Below are positions 3,518-48,769 of a stretch of 49,264 nucleotides of DNA, piece after piece. The stretch comes from Fibrobacterales bacterium (GTDB lineage Bacteria; Fibrobacterota; Fibrobacteria; Fibrobacterales; CADBQJ01), in assembly GCA_017650365.1 (NCBI GenBank), contig JAGCEZ010000089.1:1-49264 (forward strand), in the 5' to 3' direction. The position numbers and the translations under genes were made by a program. Numbering within the stretch: the stretch's first letter is position 1; each line of letters opens with the position of its first letter. A model generated the notes under the pieces. The model saw only the letters and a list, made by a program, of their open reading frames with translations. It was not told the origin of the DNA and ran no database searches.

Positions 3518-3982
3518 ATGGGTTTCATCGAAGAGGCGAACAGCCGGACCAGCGTGGTCAGCGACACCATCTTCTTCATCGTCATCGTCGCGGCGATCGT
3601 CGGCGGGGTCGTCTACTACCACGTCGCCAAGGACAACGCGCTCGAGGGCTTCTCGCAGGCCGACGAACTCTTCGCCGCCGGGAAGTACGAAGAGGCCCTC
3701 GCCAAATACGTCGAACTCCAGGACGCCGGCTGGAAGAGCGATTCGCTCGACTCCATCCTCTACGAACGCCAGGCGAAGATCGAAGGGTGGAAGGAACTCA
3801 CCGCCGAGGTGATGCAGTCCGCCGACTCGCTCCTCCGCGCGGGGGACACGGCCGCGGCCGTCGCCCGCCTGGGCGAACTCCCGAACCGCGCCTTCCTGGA
3901 CGACATGCAGCGCGCCCTCGTCGCCTCGCTTCTTCTGGAGCCCGCCGCCGATTCCGCGTCCGCGGCGCCCGCGGACCAGTGA
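3518..3982 (+). CDS. Small membrane-anchored TPR-like protein
   Basis: The 154-residue product has one transmembrane helix near residues 18-36 (TIFFIVIVAAIVGGVVYYH). A helical region follows in which ADELFAAGKYEEALAKY matches the consensus of a TPR A-helix/B-helix pair, with a second degenerate pair near residues 98-125. The tail is Ala/Pro-rich. Such proteins usually sit at the inner membrane as scaffolds; no specific partner can be named. The last codons and the TGA stop (gcg gac cag tga) lie inside the left arm of the intergenic element at 3973-4077, so this gene's 3' end has apparently been set by that element. Confidence 0.7.
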   Translation: MGFIEEANSRTSVVSDTIFFIVIVAAIVGGVVYYHVAKDNALEGFSQADELFAAGKYEEALAKYVELQDAGWKSDSLDSILYERQAKIEGWKELTAEVMQSADSLLRAGDTAAAVARLGELPNRAFLDDMQRALVASLLLEPAADSASAAPADQ

Positions 3983-4077
3983 TCAGTCGCCAGGCCCCAG
4001 GAATCAGTGGAATAATCGCGCCGAAGGCGCCTAACTACGCACTGGCACCTGGCAACTGGCACCTGGCGACTGAAATA
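3973..4077 (+). repeat. Intergenic heptad-armed palindromic element, copy A
   Basis: The left arm repeats CCAG or TCAG every seven bases (3976, 3983, 3990, 3997, 4004). The centre is AATAATCGCGCC-GAA-GGCGCC (4011-4030). The right arm repeats CTGG every seven bases (4042, 4049, 4056, 4063). The arms are therefore inverted heptad arrays around a GC-rich hairpin. Three further copies lie at 45646, 47636 and 48662. It sits between convergent genes and contains the stop codons of both the small membrane protein (plus) and tsaE (minus). Confidence 0.85.
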
Positions 4078-4487
4078 ACCCGTCCGCTCTCCCCGACGGG
4101 CTTCAGCTCGACCGTGGCGGTCACCTCGAGGTCGAGCCCCGCGAGGCGTTCGGGCCATTCGATCAGCGTGATGGCGTCCGAAAAGCGGTAGTGCTCCAGG
4201 CCGATCTCCTCCCAGTCGGCCCCCTCCGGCAGACGGTAGAGGTCCACGTGGTAGATCGGCGGTTCGCAGCGGTATTCGCGGACGATGGCGTAGGTGGGCG
4301 ACCCGGTGCGGCCCGAAAAGCCGCGCCCCTGCGCGACGCCCCGGCAGACGACGGTCTTCCCCGCGCCGAGCGGTCCTGAAAGCAGGACGCAGTCGCCGCC
4401 CTTGAGCGTCTTCCCGAACTCGCGGGCCCAGGCCAGCGTCTCCTCCTCGGAGGAGGTGCGGACGACCTCGGAATCGGAACCGCTCAC
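4035..4487 (-). CDS. tsaE: tRNA threonylcarbamoyladenosine biosynthesis ATPase TsaE
   Basis: TsaE is the ATPase that drives the TsaB-TsaD complex making t6A37 in ANN-decoding tRNAs. The 150-residue product has a Walker A motif at residues 38-45 (GPLGAGKT), the family's SPTYAIVREY and HVDLYRL motifs, and the LIEWPERL segment near the C-terminus. The start is a GTG at 4487 that overlaps the pheA stop by four bases (GTGA), so translation is coupled. The last ~12 residues (VARCQLPGASA) are encoded by the right arm of the intergenic heptad element, which also supplies the TAG stop; the C-terminal tail is therefore probably not ancestral. tsaB and tsaD are not in the window. Confidence 0.9.
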   Translation of the reverse strand: MSGSDSEVVRTSSEEETLAWAREFGKTLKGGDCVLLSGPLGAGKTVVCRGVAQGRGFSGRTGSPTYAIVREYRCEPPIYHVDLYRLPEGADWEEIGLEHYRFSDAITLIEWPERLAGLDLEVTATVELKPVGESGRVISVARCQLPGASA

Positions 4488-9971: not shown

Positions 9972-10059
9972 TTTCCCCTAGAAAAGTGGCAAAACGAGCG
10001 CAATTTTCCCCTAGAAAAGTGGCAAAATAGACACGACTTTCCCCTAGAAAAGTGTAAGG
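9972..10059. repeat. 33-bp-period repeat array 1 (three units)
   Basis: A conserved block TTTCCCCTAGAAAAGTG begins at 9972, 10005 and 10038, so the period is exactly 33 bases. Each block is followed by GGCAAAA in the first two units and by about ten variable bases. Plus-strand translation gives an 11-residue repeat (FPLEKWQNERN, FPLEKWQNRHD, FPLEKC). The minus strand is also open (ATFLGENCARF). The third unit ends in AAGTGTAAGGG, where a DUF4143 ATPase fragment starts at once. A second array with the same 33-bp period and GAAAAGTG core is at 10491. Confidence 0.85.
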
Positions 10060-10446
10060 GACTTCGACAGCTTCAAGCTCTTCCTGAACGACCTGGGGCT
10101 GCTCGGCGCCATGGCGGACGTCCCCCCGAAGGAAATCCTCTCCGGGTCGAAGATGCTGACCGAATACAAGGGCGCGTTCACGGAGCAGTTCGTGGAGCAG
10201 GCGCACCGGTCCGCGACCGACGCTCCGCTGTATTACTACACCAACAGGAACTCGACTGCGGAGATCGACTTCGTGATCCAGACGGACCGCGTCCATCCCG
10301 TCGAGGTCAAGGCGGAGGAGAACCTGAAGGCGAAGTCGCTCGCGCAGGCGTTGAAGGCAAACGAGAATCTGCGCGGGTTGCGCTTCTCGATGTCGGACTA
10401 CCGCGAAGAGGAGCGGATGACGAACGTCCCGCTCTATCTGGCGTAA
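10060..10446 (+). pseudogene. C-terminal fragment of DUF4143-type AAA+ ATPase
   Basis: The open frame from 10060 to the stop at 10446 starts with FDSFKLFLNDLGLLGAM, then contains a KGAFTEQFVEQ segment, YYYTNRNSTAEIDFVIQ and VHPVEVKAEENLKAKSL. This is the C-terminal half of AAA+ ATPases with a DUF4143 domain. The E-I-D-F-V and V-E-V-K elements form a restriction-endonuclease-like core (PD-(D/E)xK fold in this family). The whole P-loop domain is missing: the sequence upstream is the 33-bp array. An ATG at 10111 could start a 111-residue product, but a functional protein is unlikely. The role of the family is poorly known. Confidence 0.75.
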
Positions 10447-10490
10447 ACAGCGAAAATTAGCTGATTTTGGCGGTTTGTGATAAAAGTCGC

Positions 10491-10636
10491 TTGGGAAAGT
10501 GTGCGCCAGGCTTGAAAAGTCCCTTGGAAAAGTGTGCTCGGAGTACGGGAATTCGGTTGAAAAAGTGCGGCCAAGCGGTCATAAATCGCTTGGAAAAGTG
10601 CGAAAAAGCGTTGCGGATCCGGTTGAAAAAAGTGTA
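10491..10636. repeat. 33-bp-period repeat array 2 (five degenerate units)
   Basis: The core AAAGTG occurs at 10496, 10529, 10562, 10595 and 10629, giving spacings of 33, 33, 33 and 34 bases. It is usually preceded by TTGG or GTTG and A residues. Plus-strand translation gives 11-residue units of the form S-[LV]-[GE]-K-V plus six variable residues. The minus strand gives [AT]-L-F-Q units. The last unit ends in AAGTGTAAGCG, which closely matches the end of array 1, and is followed directly by another ATPase-like fragment. Confidence 0.75.
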
Positions 10637-11650: not shown

Positions 11651-11843
11651 CATATGCCTAAATGGCTTCAACCGCACACTCCGTCGCGAAAGCCCGGGTA
11701 TGTACGAGTTCTAGAGCATCGAGCAAGCGCAGGAACTTGCCACGAAGTGGCTGTGGAGCTATAATCATGAGCGGCCGCACTCCGCCATCGGCGGAATCCC
11801 GTCTGTGAAGCTGCTGGCCCAAATGTCTGTCGCTACTGAATGA
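11651..11843 (+). mobile_element. IS3-family transposase (OrfB) C-terminal remnant
   Basis: Read from 11661, the frame gives NGFNRTLRRESPGMYEF, an amber stop, then SIEQAQELATKWLWSYN and HERPHSAIGG, ending at a TGA at 11841-11843. This is the end of an IS3-family DDE transposase (the E-R-F-N-R-T and W-x-x-x-Y-N-x-x-R-P-H motifs). The N-terminal and catalytic parts are missing and one stop interrupts the tail, so it is dead. Similar tails occur at 13206-13292 (same strand) and 27140-27400 (opposite strand). Confidence 0.8.
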
Positions 11844-11940
11844 GCCCTCAAGCAACCTGAATTAAGTCCCGTTTCCGACATTCATCGGTCCCAGCCCCAC
11901 CTCCACCAGACTTTGCTAAAGAACTCGTGCAAGTTCACAA

Positions 11941-27139: not shown

Positions 27140-27940
27140 CTGTAGCCTCCCCCATTTTTAGTGGGTTCGTTCAGCAGAGACAGACATTTGGGCTGGCAGC
27201 TGCGTGGTCGTGATTCCGCCGATGACGGAGTGCGGCTGTTCTGATTATAGCTCCACAGCCACTCCGTGGCAAGTTCCTGCGCCTCCTCGATGCTCGGAAA
27301 TTGTTCTTCCCCAGCCACTCGTGCTAGAAAGTCCGGTTGAAGTGCTTGGTTGGACCATTGTCGCAGCGAATAGCCCAAGGGACGTCTCACCACTCAAAGT
27401 GTTGAAAGTGGTGAATGTCTACCGTCACACAGAGCCCTTCTTGAAGACATTGATGATATTGAAGATTCGGAACTAGTGCCTCGACGACACAGATCGTTGC
27501 TCATGAAGTTAATCGACTAGACCTTGTTCGGCACGGCAGCGGAGCGGAACAAGCCTGTTTAATCCGCCTGCTAGGTTTGATGTGTAAAATGAGTTCCTGT
27601 TTGCGGTAAATGCACTTGGGGTTTTGAAATATTTTTTGTTGCACAGATATGGTGGCACAGGCCGAATTCCCAACGTCTGCAGCAAGCTGCGCCACTATCG
27701 TCTCGTTCTTGTCCGCTTTGCTTGCGCACGTATTGGTGACACGTTCGGTTGATTCTTCGGCCGGGCGTTTTCGTACTCGAGCACCTTGTGCTTGGCGATG
27801 AACGCCGCGCCCGCGTCGGCATACTTTGAATGCCACTGTAGTAAAGGGTTTAGCTGATGGAGCGCTCACGGTAGATCTCTGCTATGGTCTCCTTGGCCTC
27901 GCCCGGCTTCAAATCGCTATAATCTAGCGGTCGGTGAACC
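27140..27940 (-). mobile_element. Decayed IS3-family element (orfA and orfB remnants)
   Basis: On the minus strand 27930-27540 holds an OrfA-like start (DYSDLKPGEAKETIAEIYRE, then a stop, then LLQWHSKYADAGAAFIAKHK and VLEYENARPKNQ). 27540-27400 holds broken pieces of the OrfB catalytic core (VDFMSNDL, RRALCVTVD, LRQWSNQ in place of R-C-D-N-G-P). 27340-27140 holds the tail SIEEAQELATEWLWSYNQ. Internal deletions and several shifts and stops show that it is inactive. It lies immediately upstream of wzt and between the polysaccharide genes and the defence pair. Confidence 0.7.
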
Positions 27941-43840: not shown

Positions 43841-45601
43841 CTACACCACGAGCCACTGCAGCATTTCGAGCACCCCCTCGTAGTCGGGGATGAACTGCTT
43901 CGGGTCCTGCGAACGGTCTCCCAGCCGCTCCACGAACTGCGACCAGACGTGCTCGTTCTTGCCGTTGAGCCCCAGGTGGTTCTCGATGGTCCCGCGCGTC
44001 CAGAGCCAGATGTTCTTCGCCTTCAGCTTTTCGTGCAGATTGGCGATCGGCTCCCGGCACTCCTGCAGCGACGCGAAGTACGCGTAGGCCTCGGAGGCGC
44101 TCATGCCGCTGCGCTTCGAGACGGGGATCCCCTGCACGAGCCGGATGTTCTTCATCATCGCGCGCTCGCCGAACTCGCGCATGCAGTCGAGCAGGTCGGG
44201 GTCGTCCTCCTCCAGGAACCCGTCGCGGACGGCGTCGGTGAAGGCGTAGTCGAGGTCGACGAGCGCCTTGACGGGGAGGTCCATGGCCGTCAGCACCTTC
44301 ATCGACTTGGCCGTGTTGGAGACGCCGCCCTGGCGGATCAGCGCCAGCTTCCGCAGCACGAACGAGTCGCCGGTCAGCCGCTCGTAGAGCCGCGGCAGGA
44401 TGCGCAGCTCGGTCTTCCCCTCGGTGAGGGCGATGCGGTCGGCGAAGAGCATCTCGTTGGAGTTGCTCAGCGAGAAGAGCAGCTGCAGCTGGCTCGGCGC
44501 GTCGTGCACCACGCGCTTGACCGCGTCCTCGATCCGCTCGCGCATGAACGTGCCGCGCGCGATGTTCTTGCGGATCAGCAGGCAGGTGCGCACGTCCTCG
44601 GCGGTCACCATCTGCGCGCTGTGCGTGGCGAAGACCACCTGGAAGCCCTCCTGCGAGAGCCGCTTGAGGCTGAGCCGCACCAGCTCCACCGCCTGCGGGT
44701 GGAGGTGGAGCTCGGGCTCCTCGATCAGCAGGAGGCGCCGGCCCGGGTGCTTGCTCTGCGCGGCCTTCGTCTCGGCCAGGCGCCGGAGGAGGGCCATCTG
44801 CACGGCGCGCTGCGCGCCCTGGCCCATCAGCGAGAGGTCCTGCCCGTCGGGGTAGCCCTCTTCGTAGACCCGCAGGCTCGCCTGCCGCAGGAGCGTGGAG
44901 AGGTCGGGCCGCGGGAACTGGATCTGCAGGCGCAGGCTCGGGAAGATCGCCTCGAGCGCGCGGTTGAGCTCGCGGTCGAAGTTGCGCAGCTCCTGCGGGC
45001 GGTCGTAGTCGTCGCCGAAGAGCGGGGAGAGCGCCTCGAACGCCTTCTCGAACGCCTCGCGGTAGCGCTCGATCAGCGGCCCGACCACGGCGGAGAGCAG
45101 CTGGCTCGTCAGGTTCCCCTCGCCCTCGCCGAAGGGGCCCGTGTCGTCGGGCAGCGCGGAGATGATCAGCGGGCTGGGCATCAGCTCGCGCAGGGCGTTT
45201 TCGGCCGCGAGATCGACTTTCCAGTGGTCCTCGGAGTGCTTCGAGCCCGGGTGCAGGAAGACGAGCGGCGGCTTGATGCGCGTGTCGGTCTTCTCCTGCC
45301 GTCGCCGGATCAGGATCTTGCCGTCGTTCAGGTAGGGGACCAGCGCCCCCATCCCGAACTCCTCGAGGGTCTCGCGCTCCAGCCCCCCGACGGTCCCCTC
45401 CACCTCGACGGTCTTGTTGACGTTGCGGAAGTGGAAGCGGTTGAGCGGGGTGCCCTGGAAGAGCCAGGCCAGCCCGAGGAGGATGCTCGTCTTCCCCGTG
45501 TTGTTGCCCCCGACGAGGGCGGTGAAGTCGGAGAGCGGGAAGGTTTCGCTCCGGATGGACCGGAGGTTGGTGATGCGGACGGATTCCAGCGCGGGCTTCA
45601 T
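43841..45601 (-). CDS. OLD-family ATP-dependent nuclease
   Basis: The 586-residue protein has an SMC-like ATPase: LESVRITNLRSIRSETFPLS, Walker A VGGNNTGKTSIL (residues 30-41), a signature-like LSLMGQGAQRAVQM, Walker B LLLIEEPELHLHPQ and the FATHSAQM switch His. The C-terminal TOPRIM domain has ALTEGKTELRILPRL (the catalytic Glu) and ALVDLDYAF (D-x-D). That is the class 1 or 2 OLD layout, and such proteins degrade DNA and often protect against phage. No UvrD/PcrA-like helicase (GajB) is adjacent, so this is not a Gabija pair. GC content is high, unlike the AbiL pair, so it seems native to this genome. Confidence 0.85.
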   Translation of the reverse strand: MKPALESVRITNLRSIRSETFPLSDFTALVGGNNTGKTSILLGLAWLFQGTPLNRFHFRNVNKTVEVEGTVGGLERETLEEFGMGALVPYLNDGKILIRRRQEKTDTRIKPPLVFLHPGSKHSEDHWKVDLAAENALRELMPSPLIISALPDDTGPFGEGEGNLTSQLLSAVVGPLIERYREAFEKAFEALSPLFGDDYDRPQELRNFDRELNRALEAIFPSLRLQIQFPRPDLSTLLRQASLRVYEEGYPDGQDLSLMGQGAQRAVQMALLRRLAETKAAQSKHPGRRLLLIEEPELHLHPQAVELVRLSLKRLSQEGFQVVFATHSAQMVTAEDVRTCLLIRKNIARGTFMRERIEDAVKRVVHDAPSQLQLLFSLSNSNEMLFADRIALTEGKTELRILPRLYERLTGDSFVLRKLALIRQGGVSNTAKSMKVLTAMDLPVKALVDLDYAFTDAVRDGFLEEDDPDLLDCMREFGERAMMKNIRLVQGIPVSKRSGMSASEAYAYFASLQECREPIANLHEKLKAKNIWLWTRGTIENHLGLNGKNEHVWSQFVERLGDRSQDPKQFIPDYEGVLEMLQWLVV

Positions 45602-45645: not shown

Positions 45646-45750
45646 GGTCGTCAGTCGCCGGTCGCCAGTCGCCGGTCGCCAGTGCGGATTAAGGCGCCGA
45701 AGGCGCGATTATTTCACTGGCCCCTGGTCCCTGGGCCTGGCGACTAGTGA
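45646..45750 (-). repeat. Intergenic heptad-armed palindromic element, copy B
   Basis: Inverted relative to copies A, C and D. On the minus strand the left arm has CTAG then CCAG units every 6-7 bases. The centre reads ATAATCGCGCC-TTC-GGCGCC, and the right arm alternates ACTGGCG and ACCGGCG. It lies between the divergent starts of the OLD-family gene (45601) and the lipoprotein gene (45851), so it is not limited to gene ends. Confidence 0.8.
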
Positions 45751-45850
45751 CTCTTCTTGCCAGAATGTTCCCGCAAGATTACATTCGGGAGACGAACGAG
45801 GAAAGGCGCCCGCCTCCGCGGACGCACCCGGAAAAAGAAGGAGAACGAAG

Positions 45851-47581
45851 ATGTCCTGTCGTACCGTCAAGATCGCCGCGGCCGTTTCGGCCGCGCTCCT
45901 GCTGGGGGCCTGCGGCGACGAAATCACCAAAGTCGCCGGCGGAGCCGCCGGAACCGGCGTCGTCGCCGACCTCGAGGCGGCGGGCGAATGCGACGCCTCC
46001 GCGCTGGGCCGGATGGTCCTGAGCAAGGCCGACAGCCTGCTTTACGTCTGCGACGGCGAGGAGTGGCTCTCGCTGAAGGGCGCCGCGGGCAAGGCCGGCG
46101 CCTCCTGCTCGGCCAAGAGCGTGGACGAGGGGATCGAGATCACGTGCGGCAAGAAGGTCGACACGCTGAAGACGCCCGAACTCCCCGACGTCGACGACGG
46201 GACGAGCTGCGAAGGGCGCAAGGTCGAACCTTTCGGCGTCGAGATCTCCTGCGGCGGCAAGCCGGTCGACACGCTGGGCTCGGTGAAGCTCTGCGCCGGA
46301 TACGCGTCGTACGACACGAAGGAATCCTTCTGCGACGAACGCGACGGCAAGGTCTATCGCTGGACGCGGATCGGCGACCAGATCTGGATGGCCGAGAACC
46401 TCGACTTCGGCGACTACATCACCTCCACCGGTCCTTCGTCGACCTCCAACCCGCAGGGCGCCGCGACGGAGGAATCCGCGGACAAGTACTGCCTAAACGA
46501 CGTCGAGGACAATTGCTCGCTCGGCAGGTACGCTTTGCTTCCCGGCGGCGTGGCTCCGCCCGTGGAATACGGCGGCTTCTACCAGTGGCACACGGCGATG
46601 GCGCTGTCGGGGAACTACGCCTTCGATTCCGCCTCCGCGGCGATTCAGCCGGTCCACCGCGGCATCTGCCCCGAAGGATGGCACATTCCGACCAAGGCGG
46701 AGTGGAACAAGCTCGCCGCTTTCGTGGACAAGGCCAACGGCGGCTCCGCGGGCGACGTCGGCAAGTCGCTGAAGAGCGCACTTTGGGTCGACGCGGACGG
46801 CGACGTCTTCGGCTTCCGCGCGCTGCCCGCCGCCGTCCTGCTGCCGGGCCGCGGCTGGACGGCCGTCGGCGAGACGGCCGGATGGTGGACCGCCGACGCG
46901 ACCGATCCGGAATACGCTCCGGCCCGGGTGCTCCTCGCCGACGACTCGCTCCACGCCGGCGACGAGGTCGGCCGCGACATTGCGCTCTCCGTCCGCTGCG
47001 TGATGGACGGCGAGACCAAGGGCTCCAACTACGACTGGCAGACCCCGCCGCTCCCCGGCGCGGCGTTCGACTACGGCGTCGGAAACGCCGGCGACGGCGA
47101 GATGGAACTCTCGCTTTCCGGGGAAAACTCCGCCGCGGGCCGGCTTGACGGCGTCGTGGGCAAGGCCTACAAGGCCGGCATCGCGCTTCTGCAGTTCGCC
47201 GCAGCCGCGCAGTGGGGCTACGCCTACGGCGGCATGCTCTACCGCTTCGACGAGCCCGTCGACATCGGCGACACCGTCATGGTCCAGTTCCGGGCCGAAG
47301 CGGGACGCAAGCTGGCGCTCGTCGCCCTGGACAAGGATGCCTACGAAGACATGGAAGGCGAACCGAAGTACACCTTCACCGCCTCCGGCGAATGGCAGAC
47401 GCTCGCGGTCCGCGTCGCCGGCATCCGGCCCTGGAACGGCGCCACGAACACGCTGAACGCCGCCGCGGTCCACGCCGTGGCTCTGCGCTACGAAGAGGAG
47501 GCCACCCAGGTCGGCGGATCCTGCGCGAACTGCAGCTCCTTCCCGATTTCCCTCGAATGGAAGGCGATGGCGTTCAAGTAG
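45851..47581 (+). CDS. Fibrobacter major paralogous domain lipoprotein with C-terminal beta domain
   Basis: The 576-residue protein is a lipoprotein: the signal ends in LLLGAC with the acylated Cys21. Residues 30-150 hold a collagen-like GKAGASC and two Cys-bounded repeats (SCSAKSVDEGIEITCG and SCEGRKVEPFGVEISCG). Residues 160-385 form the major paralogous domain (TIGR02145 type), with YRWTRIGDQIWMAENLDF, YGGFYQWHTAM and GICPEGWHIPTKAEWNKLAA. The C-terminal 175 residues look like a beta-sandwich carbohydrate-binding module (YRFDEPVDIGDTVMVQFRAE). It is probably surface-exposed. The domain's function is unknown; sugar binding by the last domain is inference. A strong terminator follows. Confidence 0.85.
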   Translation: MSCRTVKIAAAVSAALLLGACGDEITKVAGGAAGTGVVADLEAAGECDASALGRMVLSKADSLLYVCDGEEWLSLKGAAGKAGASCSAKSVDEGIEITCGKKVDTLKTPELPDVDDGTSCEGRKVEPFGVEISCGGKPVDTLGSVKLCAGYASYDTKESFCDERDGKVYRWTRIGDQIWMAENLDFGDYITSTGPSSTSNPQGAATEESADKYCLNDVEDNCSLGRYALLPGGVAPPVEYGGFYQWHTAMALSGNYAFDSASAAIQPVHRGICPEGWHIPTKAEWNKLAAFVDKANGGSAGDVGKSLKSALWVDADGDVFGFRALPAAVLLPGRGWTAVGETAGWWTADATDPEYAPARVLLADDSLHAGDEVGRDIALSVRCVMDGETKGSNYDWQTPPLPGAAFDYGVGNAGDGEMELSLSGENSAAGRLDGVVGKAYKAGIALLQFAAAAQWGYAYGGMLYRFDEPVDIGDTVMVQFRAEAGRKLALVALDKDAYEDMEGEPKYTFTASGEWQTLAVRVAGIRPWNGATNTLNAAAVHAVALRYEEEATQVGGSCANCSSFPISLEWKAMAFK

Positions 47582-47602
47582 CGCGTCGCTTCCGGAACGA
47601 CG

Positions 47603-47635
47603 AAGAGCCTCCCTCCCGGGAGGCTCTTCTTTTTC
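47603..47635 (+). terminator. Rho-independent terminator after the lipoprotein gene
   Basis: AAGAGCCTCC (47603-47612) and GGAGGCTCTT (47619-47628) form a perfect ten-pair stem with a six-base loop, followed by CTTTTTC. It is 21 bases after the stop codon. Confidence 0.9.
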
Positions 47636-47756
47636 TCGCGCCTTCGGCGCCATCGTACGCAGTGACCAGTCTCCAGGCCCCAGGGACTAGTAGCATAATC
47701 GCGCCTTCGGCGCCTAACTACGCACTGGCGACTGGCCCCTGGTCCCTGGCGACTAG
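47636..47756 (+). repeat. Intergenic heptad-armed palindromic element, copy C
   Basis: The main copy covers 47664-47756. CCAG/CTAG units lie every seven bases on the left (47666, 47673, 47680, 47687). The centre is ATAATCGCGCC-TTC-GGCGCC, and CTGG/CTAG units lie every seven bases on the right (47725, 47732, 47739, 47746, 47753). An extra partial centre (CGCGCCTTCGGCGCC) precedes it at 47637-47651, right after the terminator. The right arm supplies the TAG stop of the ROK-family gene. Confidence 0.85.
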
Positions 47757-48613
47757 CCCCCCACCCTCCGCGCCTGCTCGATGGCCCCCTCGGCCACGAT
47801 GTCGTTGGCGTGCTCCGCGCGCTCGATCCGGCACGCGTCGAAGAGCTTCTCCATCGCGTGGCGCTTCGCCGCCGCGACGGTCTTCTCGAAGAAGCCCGCG
47901 TAGAGCAGCACGCCGCCGCCCAAGTAGAGCTTCTCGGGGTTCATCAGGTCGATCAGCCAGGCGAGCGACATGCCGAGGATCTCCGCGGCCTCGTCCAGGA
48001 GAGCGGTCGTTTTCGGGTCGCCGGCCCCGACGGCGCGCAGGAGCTCGGGCCCGGACATCCCGGCGCGCTCCACCAGGGAGCGGCCGCCCGCGATCTCGCC
48101 CAGCGGGAGGATCTTTCCGCGGAAGGGGAATGGCACGTTCCCGAGCTCGCCCGCCATGCCGGTGCAACCGGTGCAGATCCGGCCGTCCATCATGTAGGAC
48201 ATCCCGATGTTGGTGCCGATCATCGCCAGCACGACGTTCCGCTCGCCCGGGACGCGGGCCACCTGCGCCAGCAGCGCGGCGTCGGCGTCGTTGAGGAAGA
48301 CGGGCTTCGTCCCCTTCCACTCCAGGTCGTCGGCGGAGAGGCCGTTCAGCCCGGGGATCGAGTTGCACTGGACGACGGTCTGCCCGCGGATCAGGGCGCA
48401 GATCGCGCATCCCGCGTAGCGCGGTTTCTCGGGAAGCGCGTCGATCGTCTCGCGCCAGATGCGGACCAGGTCCTCCTTCCCGAAGTCCGGGCCGCTCGGG
48501 TACGAGCGCGTCTCGTCGCCCGCGGGGGAGCGGACCAGGGTGAACAGTTTCGTCCCGCCGAGGTCGAACCCGACGTCGATCGGGGTGGTTTCGTTCGAGT
48601 TTTGTTCCGTCAT
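47753..48613 (-). CDS. ROK-family sugar kinase-like protein
   Basis: The 286-residue protein has the ASKHA fold: the N-terminal phosphate loop DVGFDLGGTKLF, the catalytic Asp in FLNDADAALLAQV, the second phosphate loop AMIGTNIGMSYMMDG and GMAGELGNVPFPF, which is the ROK G-x-A-G-E-x-G element. The usual zinc motif (C-x-C-G-x2-G-C) after it is absent, so this is a zinc-less variant, and the loop ICTGCTG precedes it instead. It may phosphorylate glucose, fructose or an amino sugar; no DNA-binding domain is present. The stop codon lies in the intergenic element (copy C). Confidence 0.82.
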   Translation of the reverse strand: MTEQNSNETTPIDVGFDLGGTKLFTLVRSPAGDETRSYPSGPDFGKEDLVRIWRETIDALPEKPRYAGCAICALIRGQTVVQCNSIPGLNGLSADDLEWKGTKPVFLNDADAALLAQVARVPGERNVVLAMIGTNIGMSYMMDGRICTGCTGMAGELGNVPFPFRGKILPLGEIAGGRSLVERAGMSGPELLRAVGAGDPKTTALLDEAAEILGMSLAWLIDLMNPEKLYLGGGVLLYAGFFEKTVAAAKRHAMEKLFDACRIERAEHANDIVAEGAIEQARRVGG

Positions 48614-48661
48614 GTCCTTATGATACTTCCGTCGAGTCCGTTGCGCAAGGGGGGGGTTAGT

Positions 48662-48769
48662 TCCCAGTCTCCAGGCTCCAGGTCCTAGTGCGTACAATCG
48701 CGCCTCCGGCGCCTTACTACGCACTGGCGACTGGCACCTGGTCCCTAGCGACTAGGCCCTGGTCCCTAA
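48662..48769 (+). repeat. Intergenic heptad-armed palindromic element, copy D
   Basis: CCAG/CTAG units lie every seven bases on the left (from 48664). The centre is ACAATCGCGCC-TCC-GGCGCC, which keeps the stem with a changed loop. CTGG/CTAG units lie every seven bases on the right up to 48766, longer than in the other copies. It is between two minus-strand genes and encodes the last residues (LGTRA) and the TAG stop of the nnrD-like gene. Confidence 0.85.

Follow-up and report, generated by a model that had tools for sequence, protein, structure and literature searches.

Outward-reading heptad arrays facing each other around a small hairpin core: a dispersed intergenic element in a genus of Fibrobacterales

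The locus and its four copies

The window analysed here is a stretch of 49,264 nucleotides, contig C5 of a 2.08-Mb, 96% complete MAG of a Fibrobacterales bacterium, and it carries four copies of an intergenic element in which two arrays of seven-base units face each other around a small GC hairpin (Table 1). The left arm of copy A holds the TGA stop of a plus-strand gene, and the frame of tsaE runs through its right arm, where the array is in frame and forms a C-terminal tail; in the sister genome tsaE is ended by a TAG in the first heptad unit. Copy B is in reverse orientation between divergent genes, with its left arm upstream of a gene for an OLD-like ATPase with a TOPRIM domain (AAA_15, OLD-like_TOPRIM), which is a possible anti-phage candidate and has the ROK gene as its neighbour in the sister genome too. 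A FISUMP (Fib_succ_major) lipoprotein gene separates copies B and C. The first unit of the right arm of copy C, beginning CTAG, holds the TAG stop of the ROK gene, the left arm of copy D lies upstream of the start of the same gene, and the right arm of copy D overlaps the stop of a gene for NAD(P)H-hydrate dehydratase. Elsewhere the window contains two sets of 33-bp tandem repeats, with three to four copies each, and a pair of long inverted repeats, 80–94% complementary and about 15 kb apart, which are possibly the ends of a mobile element.

All four copies had been reported by a first-pass annotation, and reading the sequence confirmed them, along with its account of a multi-copy, intergenic, heptad-periodic and inverted element with a layout unlike REP, BIME or ERIC and a variable number of units, the window arms having from three to seven heptads. 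Several details are revised here. The period of seven stands, but the unit, given as CCAG-NNN, is the broader YYAGKNN, which starts with CCAG, CTAG, TTAG or TCAG followed by G or T. The GC hairpin is likewise present, in a core of about 28 nt that reads GCGCC-NNN-GGCGC with a triloop. Copy B had been placed at 45646, and what had been placed at 47636 is a separate half-core (hairpin plus ATCGTACGCA), with the full copy C starting downstream of it.

Table 1. Coordinates of the elements and neighbouring features in the window
Feature	Position	Strand	Basis
Copy A, whole	3976..4073		
Copy A left arm, 5 heptads (CCAGTGA TCAGTCG CCAGGCC CCAGGAA TCAGTGG)	3976..4010	+	
TGA stop of plus-strand gene, in copy A left arm	3980..3982	+	
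Copy A core, GC triloop hairpin GCGCC-GAA-GGCGC, without T tract	4011..4038		
tsaE	4035..4487	-	
Part of tsaE frame running through copy A right arm	4035..4073	-	
Copy A right arm, 5 heptads	4039..4073	-	
33-bp tandem repeats (TTTCCCCTAGAAAAGTGGCAAAA...)	9972..10070		
33-bp tandem repeats (AAGTCGCTTGGGAAAGTG...)	10484..10633		
Long inverted repeat, first partner	11714..11850		
Long inverted repeat, second partner	27163..27295		
OLD-like AAA/TOPRIM gene	43841..45601	-	
Copy B, whole	45651..45752		
Copy B left arm, 5 heptads, two units CCGG	45651..45685	+	
Copy B core hairpin	45686..45713		
Copy B right arm, 3 in-register heptads and continuation past a register slip	45714..45752	-	
FISUMP (Fib_succ_major) lipoprotein gene	45851..47581	+	
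Intrinsic-terminator-like hairpin with T tract, 3′ of FISUMP gene	47602..47635	+	sequence
Half-core without array (hairpin and TGCGTACGAT on minus strand)	47627..47661	-	half-element model, E=0.003
Copy C, whole	47666..47756		
Copy C left arm, 4 heptads	47666..47693	+	
Copy C core hairpin GCGCC-TTC-GGCGC	47694..47721		
Copy C right arm, 5 heptads	47722..47756	-	
ROK gene	47753..48613	-	
Copy D, whole	48657..48769		
Copy D left arm, 5 heptads	48657..48691	+	
Copy D core hairpin	48692..48720		
Copy D right arm, 7 heptads	48721..48769	-	
NAD(P)H-hydrate dehydratase gene stop	48752	-	

Abundance and distribution

Four consecutive YYAGKNN units occur 106 times in the 2.08-Mb genome, against a single match for the reversed pattern, and the looser YYAGNNN, again four in a row, gives 115 matches against three for its reversed control; BLAST with one copy as the query finds 55 places at E≤1. 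The window copies are part of dozens of elements genome-wide and not, as would have counted against the first-pass annotation, the only four.

Our survey covered the stretches around matches. The sister genome used for comparison, G001 (RUG14205), is a rumen MAG of the same genus, of which about 0.54 Mb was read and some contigs of which contain runs of N; together with our own genome it belongs to a family other than that in which most of the order's genomes are placed. Genes were called with a simple codon-score script and, in the Fibrobacter family, by a longest-ORF rule. Four-unit YYAGKNN matches are found in 45 of 61 genomes of the order, with several relatives matching the reversed control as well. 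When the half-element is sought together with its core as an exact pattern, there are 18 matches in our genome, 35 in G001 and, across 166 further genomes of the phylum, none, and the half-element model gives 43 and 49 matches in the two genomes with one marginal match among 59 other Fibrobacterales genomes. The half-element with its core is limited to one genus, and coreless heptad arrays are spread across the order.

The commonest triplets among 357 units in 78 arms of our genome are TCG, GGA, TGG, GTG and GTC; the last triplet, adjoining the core, is usually TGC. These sets are genome-specific: GGA and GTC prevail in G001, TGG in the genome G055, and GGG, GAT, TGG and TTA in Fibrobacter-family loci. 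The high-information positions are YYAG and K in all genomes examined, in units that had been picked with YYAGK itself, and positions 6–7 are variable in most. Further period-7 arrays outside YYAG, with TGAGTTA-, GGAGTTC- and ATAGGGT-like units, are present in Fibrobacter-family loci (L062–L138). In two Chromatiaceae (L168 and L172) a heptad array leads straight into a REP-like repeat, CAGTGCGTAGGATGGGC. A combination of the heptad with TGCGTAGGATGGGC in Thiorhodococcus and Thiocystis was set aside, as it consisted of two cases of an array next to a REP-like repeat that were selected by the search pattern, and it is not general in those genomes. One contig match, inside a chemotaxis gene, was discarded as a chance match.

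Anatomy of the half-element

Each half-element proceeds from a YYAGKNN array through the sequence YYAGTGCGnAnnAT to a small GC hairpin, its triloop being C(UNY)G. Of 93 arms, 71 are followed by a hairpin of the C(NNN)G type, mostly 10–13 nt on, compared with 8.7 in shuffles, and this hairpin is strand-specific relative to the array: the loop is of the UNY type in 58 cases and of the reverse type, purine-N-A, in seven, the latter being concentrated in cores common to two facing arms. The stem has two versions, C-G/G-C and G-C/C-G at the first two pairs, both of them paired, pairing having been a condition of detection. A UUCG tetraloop was our first suspicion and was dropped, since the pairing register is that of a C(UNY)G triloop. 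When half-cores were aligned with MAFFT, RNAalifold recovered no consensus pair, a result probably due to differing stem registers, and as this alignment gave no base pairs the covariance model is sequence-only. Rfam produced no match in the window and tRNAs alone in five element loci.

Many cores also include a predicted intrinsic terminator. This is the case in 20 of 48 elements of our own genome (about 40%), 13 of the 20 being bidirectional, and in G001 for 17 of 25 arms, counted on the arm's own strand; judged from sequence, use as a terminator is plausible for both sets. The same test, for a GC hairpin with a T tract, found the T tract absent from all four window cores, and termination is therefore not a function of the window copies as they stand; by eye, their cores look like terminator-type cores from which the middle has been deleted. 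In Fibrobacter-family loci a C(NNN)G hairpin lies within 60 nt downstream of 17 of 58 arrays, as against 5 upstream and 0.6 in shuffles, and the general plan is therefore wider than the genus, though the linker differs.

Position and polarity relative to genes

The start of the array is tied to the ends of genes. Of 78 arms in our genome, 43 have their start next to the 3′ end of a same-strand gene, at a median distance of 3 nt and in many cases with the stop codon in the first unit, and elements favour convergent gene pairs (20/44 against 14/130, p=3e-6). That TAG stops act as seeds for arrays is unsupported (TAG in 19/34 against 68/158, p=0.19), and since the arms start after tRNA genes at two loci (L075 and L086), translation is not required. 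Elements lie beside a small share of genes, and these neighbours have no clear functional theme.

In 57 of 73 arms of our genome (57:16) the YYAG strand points outward from the closest ORF, and the same polarity is seen in 45 of 58 arms in Fibrobacter-family loci (45:13) and in 11 of 13 in Chromatiaceae (11:2). As the rule holds at both ends of genes, it suggests a cause at the level of DNA rather than a role confined to mRNA.

Facing arms and the long hairpin

The first-pass annotation described the arms as complementary and proposed that the element could fold into one long hairpin. Three of the four window copies do fold better than dinucleotide shuffles (z of -5.0, -4.2 and -4.6, with -1.5 for the fourth), because arrays of one tetramer face each other, and the strength of the fold derives from this shared tetramer alone. 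Complementarity holds for the tetramer but not for the NNN triplets, which do not match between arms: over 20 facing pairs their mirror identity is 0.36, compared with 0.39 when units are shuffled and 0.43 when arms are swapped, and substitutions thus fail to preserve the pairing of the arms. Elements with swapped arms are predicted to be no less stable (-54.2 vs -53.4 kcal/mol, Wilcoxon p=0.87), the YY flavours of the two arms are uncorrelated (r=0.01), as is the sharing of words, and many elements have one arm only. The model scan suggested by the first-pass annotation yielded many copies, and the comparison of facing arms showed no compensatory changes between them. With no coevolution of the arms in triplet shuffles or arm swaps, it is very improbable that the two arms make up one long selected hairpin or cruciform.

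Turnover between sister genomes

Orthologous sites in the two sister genomes either keep the element with changed triplets or are without it. At one site (L102, and L144 in G001), where the protein is 95% identical, the array, core, terminator and facing array are present in both genomes and the triplets differ. At another (L083, and L148/L150 in G001) G001 lacks one arm, and the stop of the other gene is now the first unit. Between syntenic convergent genes (L084/L287) our genome has a 12-unit array and a terminator between the stops, and no array was seen in the 300 bp checked in G001. Copies B and C flank the FISUMP gene, and the whole stretch from array to array (45651–47756) is absent from G001, where about 45 bp without an array separate the ROK stop from the AAA start; the breakpoints of this absence fall where the arrays end on their outer sides. 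A target-site duplication, which with terminal inverted repeats would mark a MITE or an IS-related element, was not seen at the two sites compared, empty sites being few. Synteny was kept at one of eight junctions with an element and at 27 of 39 without one (p=0.005); with stricter matching the values are p=0.04 when gap types are matched and p=0.09 when the comparison is confined to gaps >60 bp. The sample is small and comes from one partly read sister genome, and two of the eight junctions represent a single event.

Explanations considered

We favour, with moderate confidence, the explanation that the element is a dispersed, non-coding and non-autonomous repeat of the intergenic heptameric class, REP/BIME-like in its lifestyle, each copy of which consists of two facing, independent half-elements. 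A half-element begins at a gene boundary, usually at the stop codon or a few bases off, and is directed away from the gene. Between convergent genes two half-elements meet around one shared hairpin, which is the window type, or else around a bidirectional intrinsic terminator with a hairpin on each side. Half-elements being independent and directional, the inverted layout is on this reading the sum of two arrays and not a selected palindrome. Terminator-bearing cores would form the 3′ ends of flanking transcripts in vivo, and slippage and gene conversion may be what adds, removes and swaps units in the arms, giving each genome a triplet set of its own. Against this explanation, pure slippage does not account for a YYAGK that stays constant from phylum to phylum beside a variable NNN, and neither a donor nor a transposase was found for the elements.

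It is possible, if unlikely, that the arms are instead phased protein-binding platforms, at mRNA 3′ ends or in the DNA itself, with YYAGK recurring every seven bases and NNN as a spacer; the hairpin and terminator would then set a 3′ end which the protein protects or processes, or the protein would condense DNA. The information held by YYAG and K in every genome examined, in units picked by that motif, agrees with such a platform, as do the survival of the frame through triplet replacement at the orthologous site L102/L144 and the strand-specific hairpin. Arms at 5′ ends are, however, antisense to the downstream gene, which makes a single RNA role unfit for both positions; sister species differ by gains and losses of arms, the neighbouring genes show no functional theme, and no candidate binder emerged. 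More improbable, in our view, is that the elements are the ends or landing pads of mobile gene cassettes (FISUMP lipoproteins, Rpn/PDDEXK nucleases) that move with the arrays. The absence of the array-to-array FISUMP stretch at the orthologous ROK/AAA junction of G001 and the lower synteny of element junctions fit this proposal, and PDDEXK_2 (Rpn-type nuclease) genes adjoin arrays at four of seven matches (C30, C104, C105 and C122; the loci on these contigs are L075, L094, L095 and L102). The neighbours are nevertheless mostly housekeeping genes, no recombinase is tied to the arrays, target-site duplications were not seen at the sites compared, the sample is small, and convergent or less conserved junctions may tolerate repeats and insertions alike. 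Mobilisation as a REP/BIME family by a RAYT transposase would account for small GC hairpins, inverted pairs, location at 3′ ends and the GTAG-like motif (TGCGTAG) in a subset of cores. We give it hardly any credence: the two near-complete genomes with the core contain no Y1_Tnp gene (0 matches, with controls positive), GTAG is not conserved (the consensus being TGCGnAnnAT), and heptad arrays are foreign to REPs.

Relation to known repeats

The independent half-element that we favour belongs to a known kind of repeat, as its period-7 tandem units are multi-copy and lie outside genes. The nearest published cases are the intergenic heptameric repeats GGGAATC of Xanthomonas and GGGGA(C/T)T of Nostoc, for which the outward-from-ORF rule was described (PMC4692102) and with whose polarity our three ratios agree. 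They too are extragenic tandem heptads that vary in length and sequence between close species at the same sites (PMC4692102), and their units can be rotated to YYRGKNN. Unlike ours, they form G4 structures, have mainly four units and are described without any facing arrangement about a hairpin or terminator (PMC4692102); the main words of our arrays (TCG, GTG, GGA and TGG) give no runs of four G3 tracts. They are also reported from regions of increased stability (PMC4692102), whereas synteny tends to break at our elements. The TAACTGA direct repeats of Beggiatoaceae, Cyanobacteria and Bacteroidetes (MacGregor 2015, PMC4679880) are intergenic heptads whose reverse complement, TCAGTTA, fits YYAGKNN. 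They consist of one fixed heptamer found mostly just 5′ of start codons, with one inverted case only and no hairpin core (PMC4679880), and the TTA triplet is absent from the table of our genome, related units being found in Fibrobacter loci only. The STRR heptanucleotides of Calothrix, as cited in PMC4692102, are likewise tandem and multi-copy, and were compared here by that paper's description, which mentions no inverted layout. REP and BIME sequences (Nunvar 2010, PMC2817692) share with our element its dispersed and extragenic nature, paired inverted small palindromes and frequent location at gene 3′ ends; ours has no conserved GT(A/G)G head and no RAYT, and long heptad arrays are its main part. 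Bidirectional intrinsic terminators between convergent genes are present in the core of many elements outside the window, but ordinary terminators come without flanking heptad arrays and without species-specific triplet sets. In the literature consulted we found neither the facing layout around a hairpin and terminator nor genome-specific triplet sets, nor the outward rule in the Fibrobacter lineage.

The frame itself may reach further. Rotation brings GTGATTA of Helicobacter pylori, TAACTGA, GGGAATC and GGGGA(C/T)T alike to YYRGKNN, an agreement that is suggestive but post hoc, since 19% of all heptad classes can be brought to YYRGKNN in this way and 10% to YYAGKNN. We raise with considerable doubt the idea of a single class that takes in the separately reported arrays of Fibrobacterota, Chromatiaceae, Beggiatoaceae, Cyanobacteria, Xanthomonas and Helicobacter, defined by the YYRGKNN frame and outward polarity at both gene ends. 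If so, one unrecognised, directional process at the DNA level would build or keep arrays at gene boundaries, and inverted pairs would be the product of both flanks being occupied.

Heptameric intergenic repeats are over-represented in many bacteria, with no established role in the literature consulted. To this subject the present lineage contributes a clear anatomy, of array, linker, hairpin and terminator, and a directional rule that fits an unrelated published case, together with the caution that inverted arrays are not to be read as hairpins. Conserved sites whose arrays differ between sister genomes make the origin and maintenance of period-7 arrays testable by comparison.
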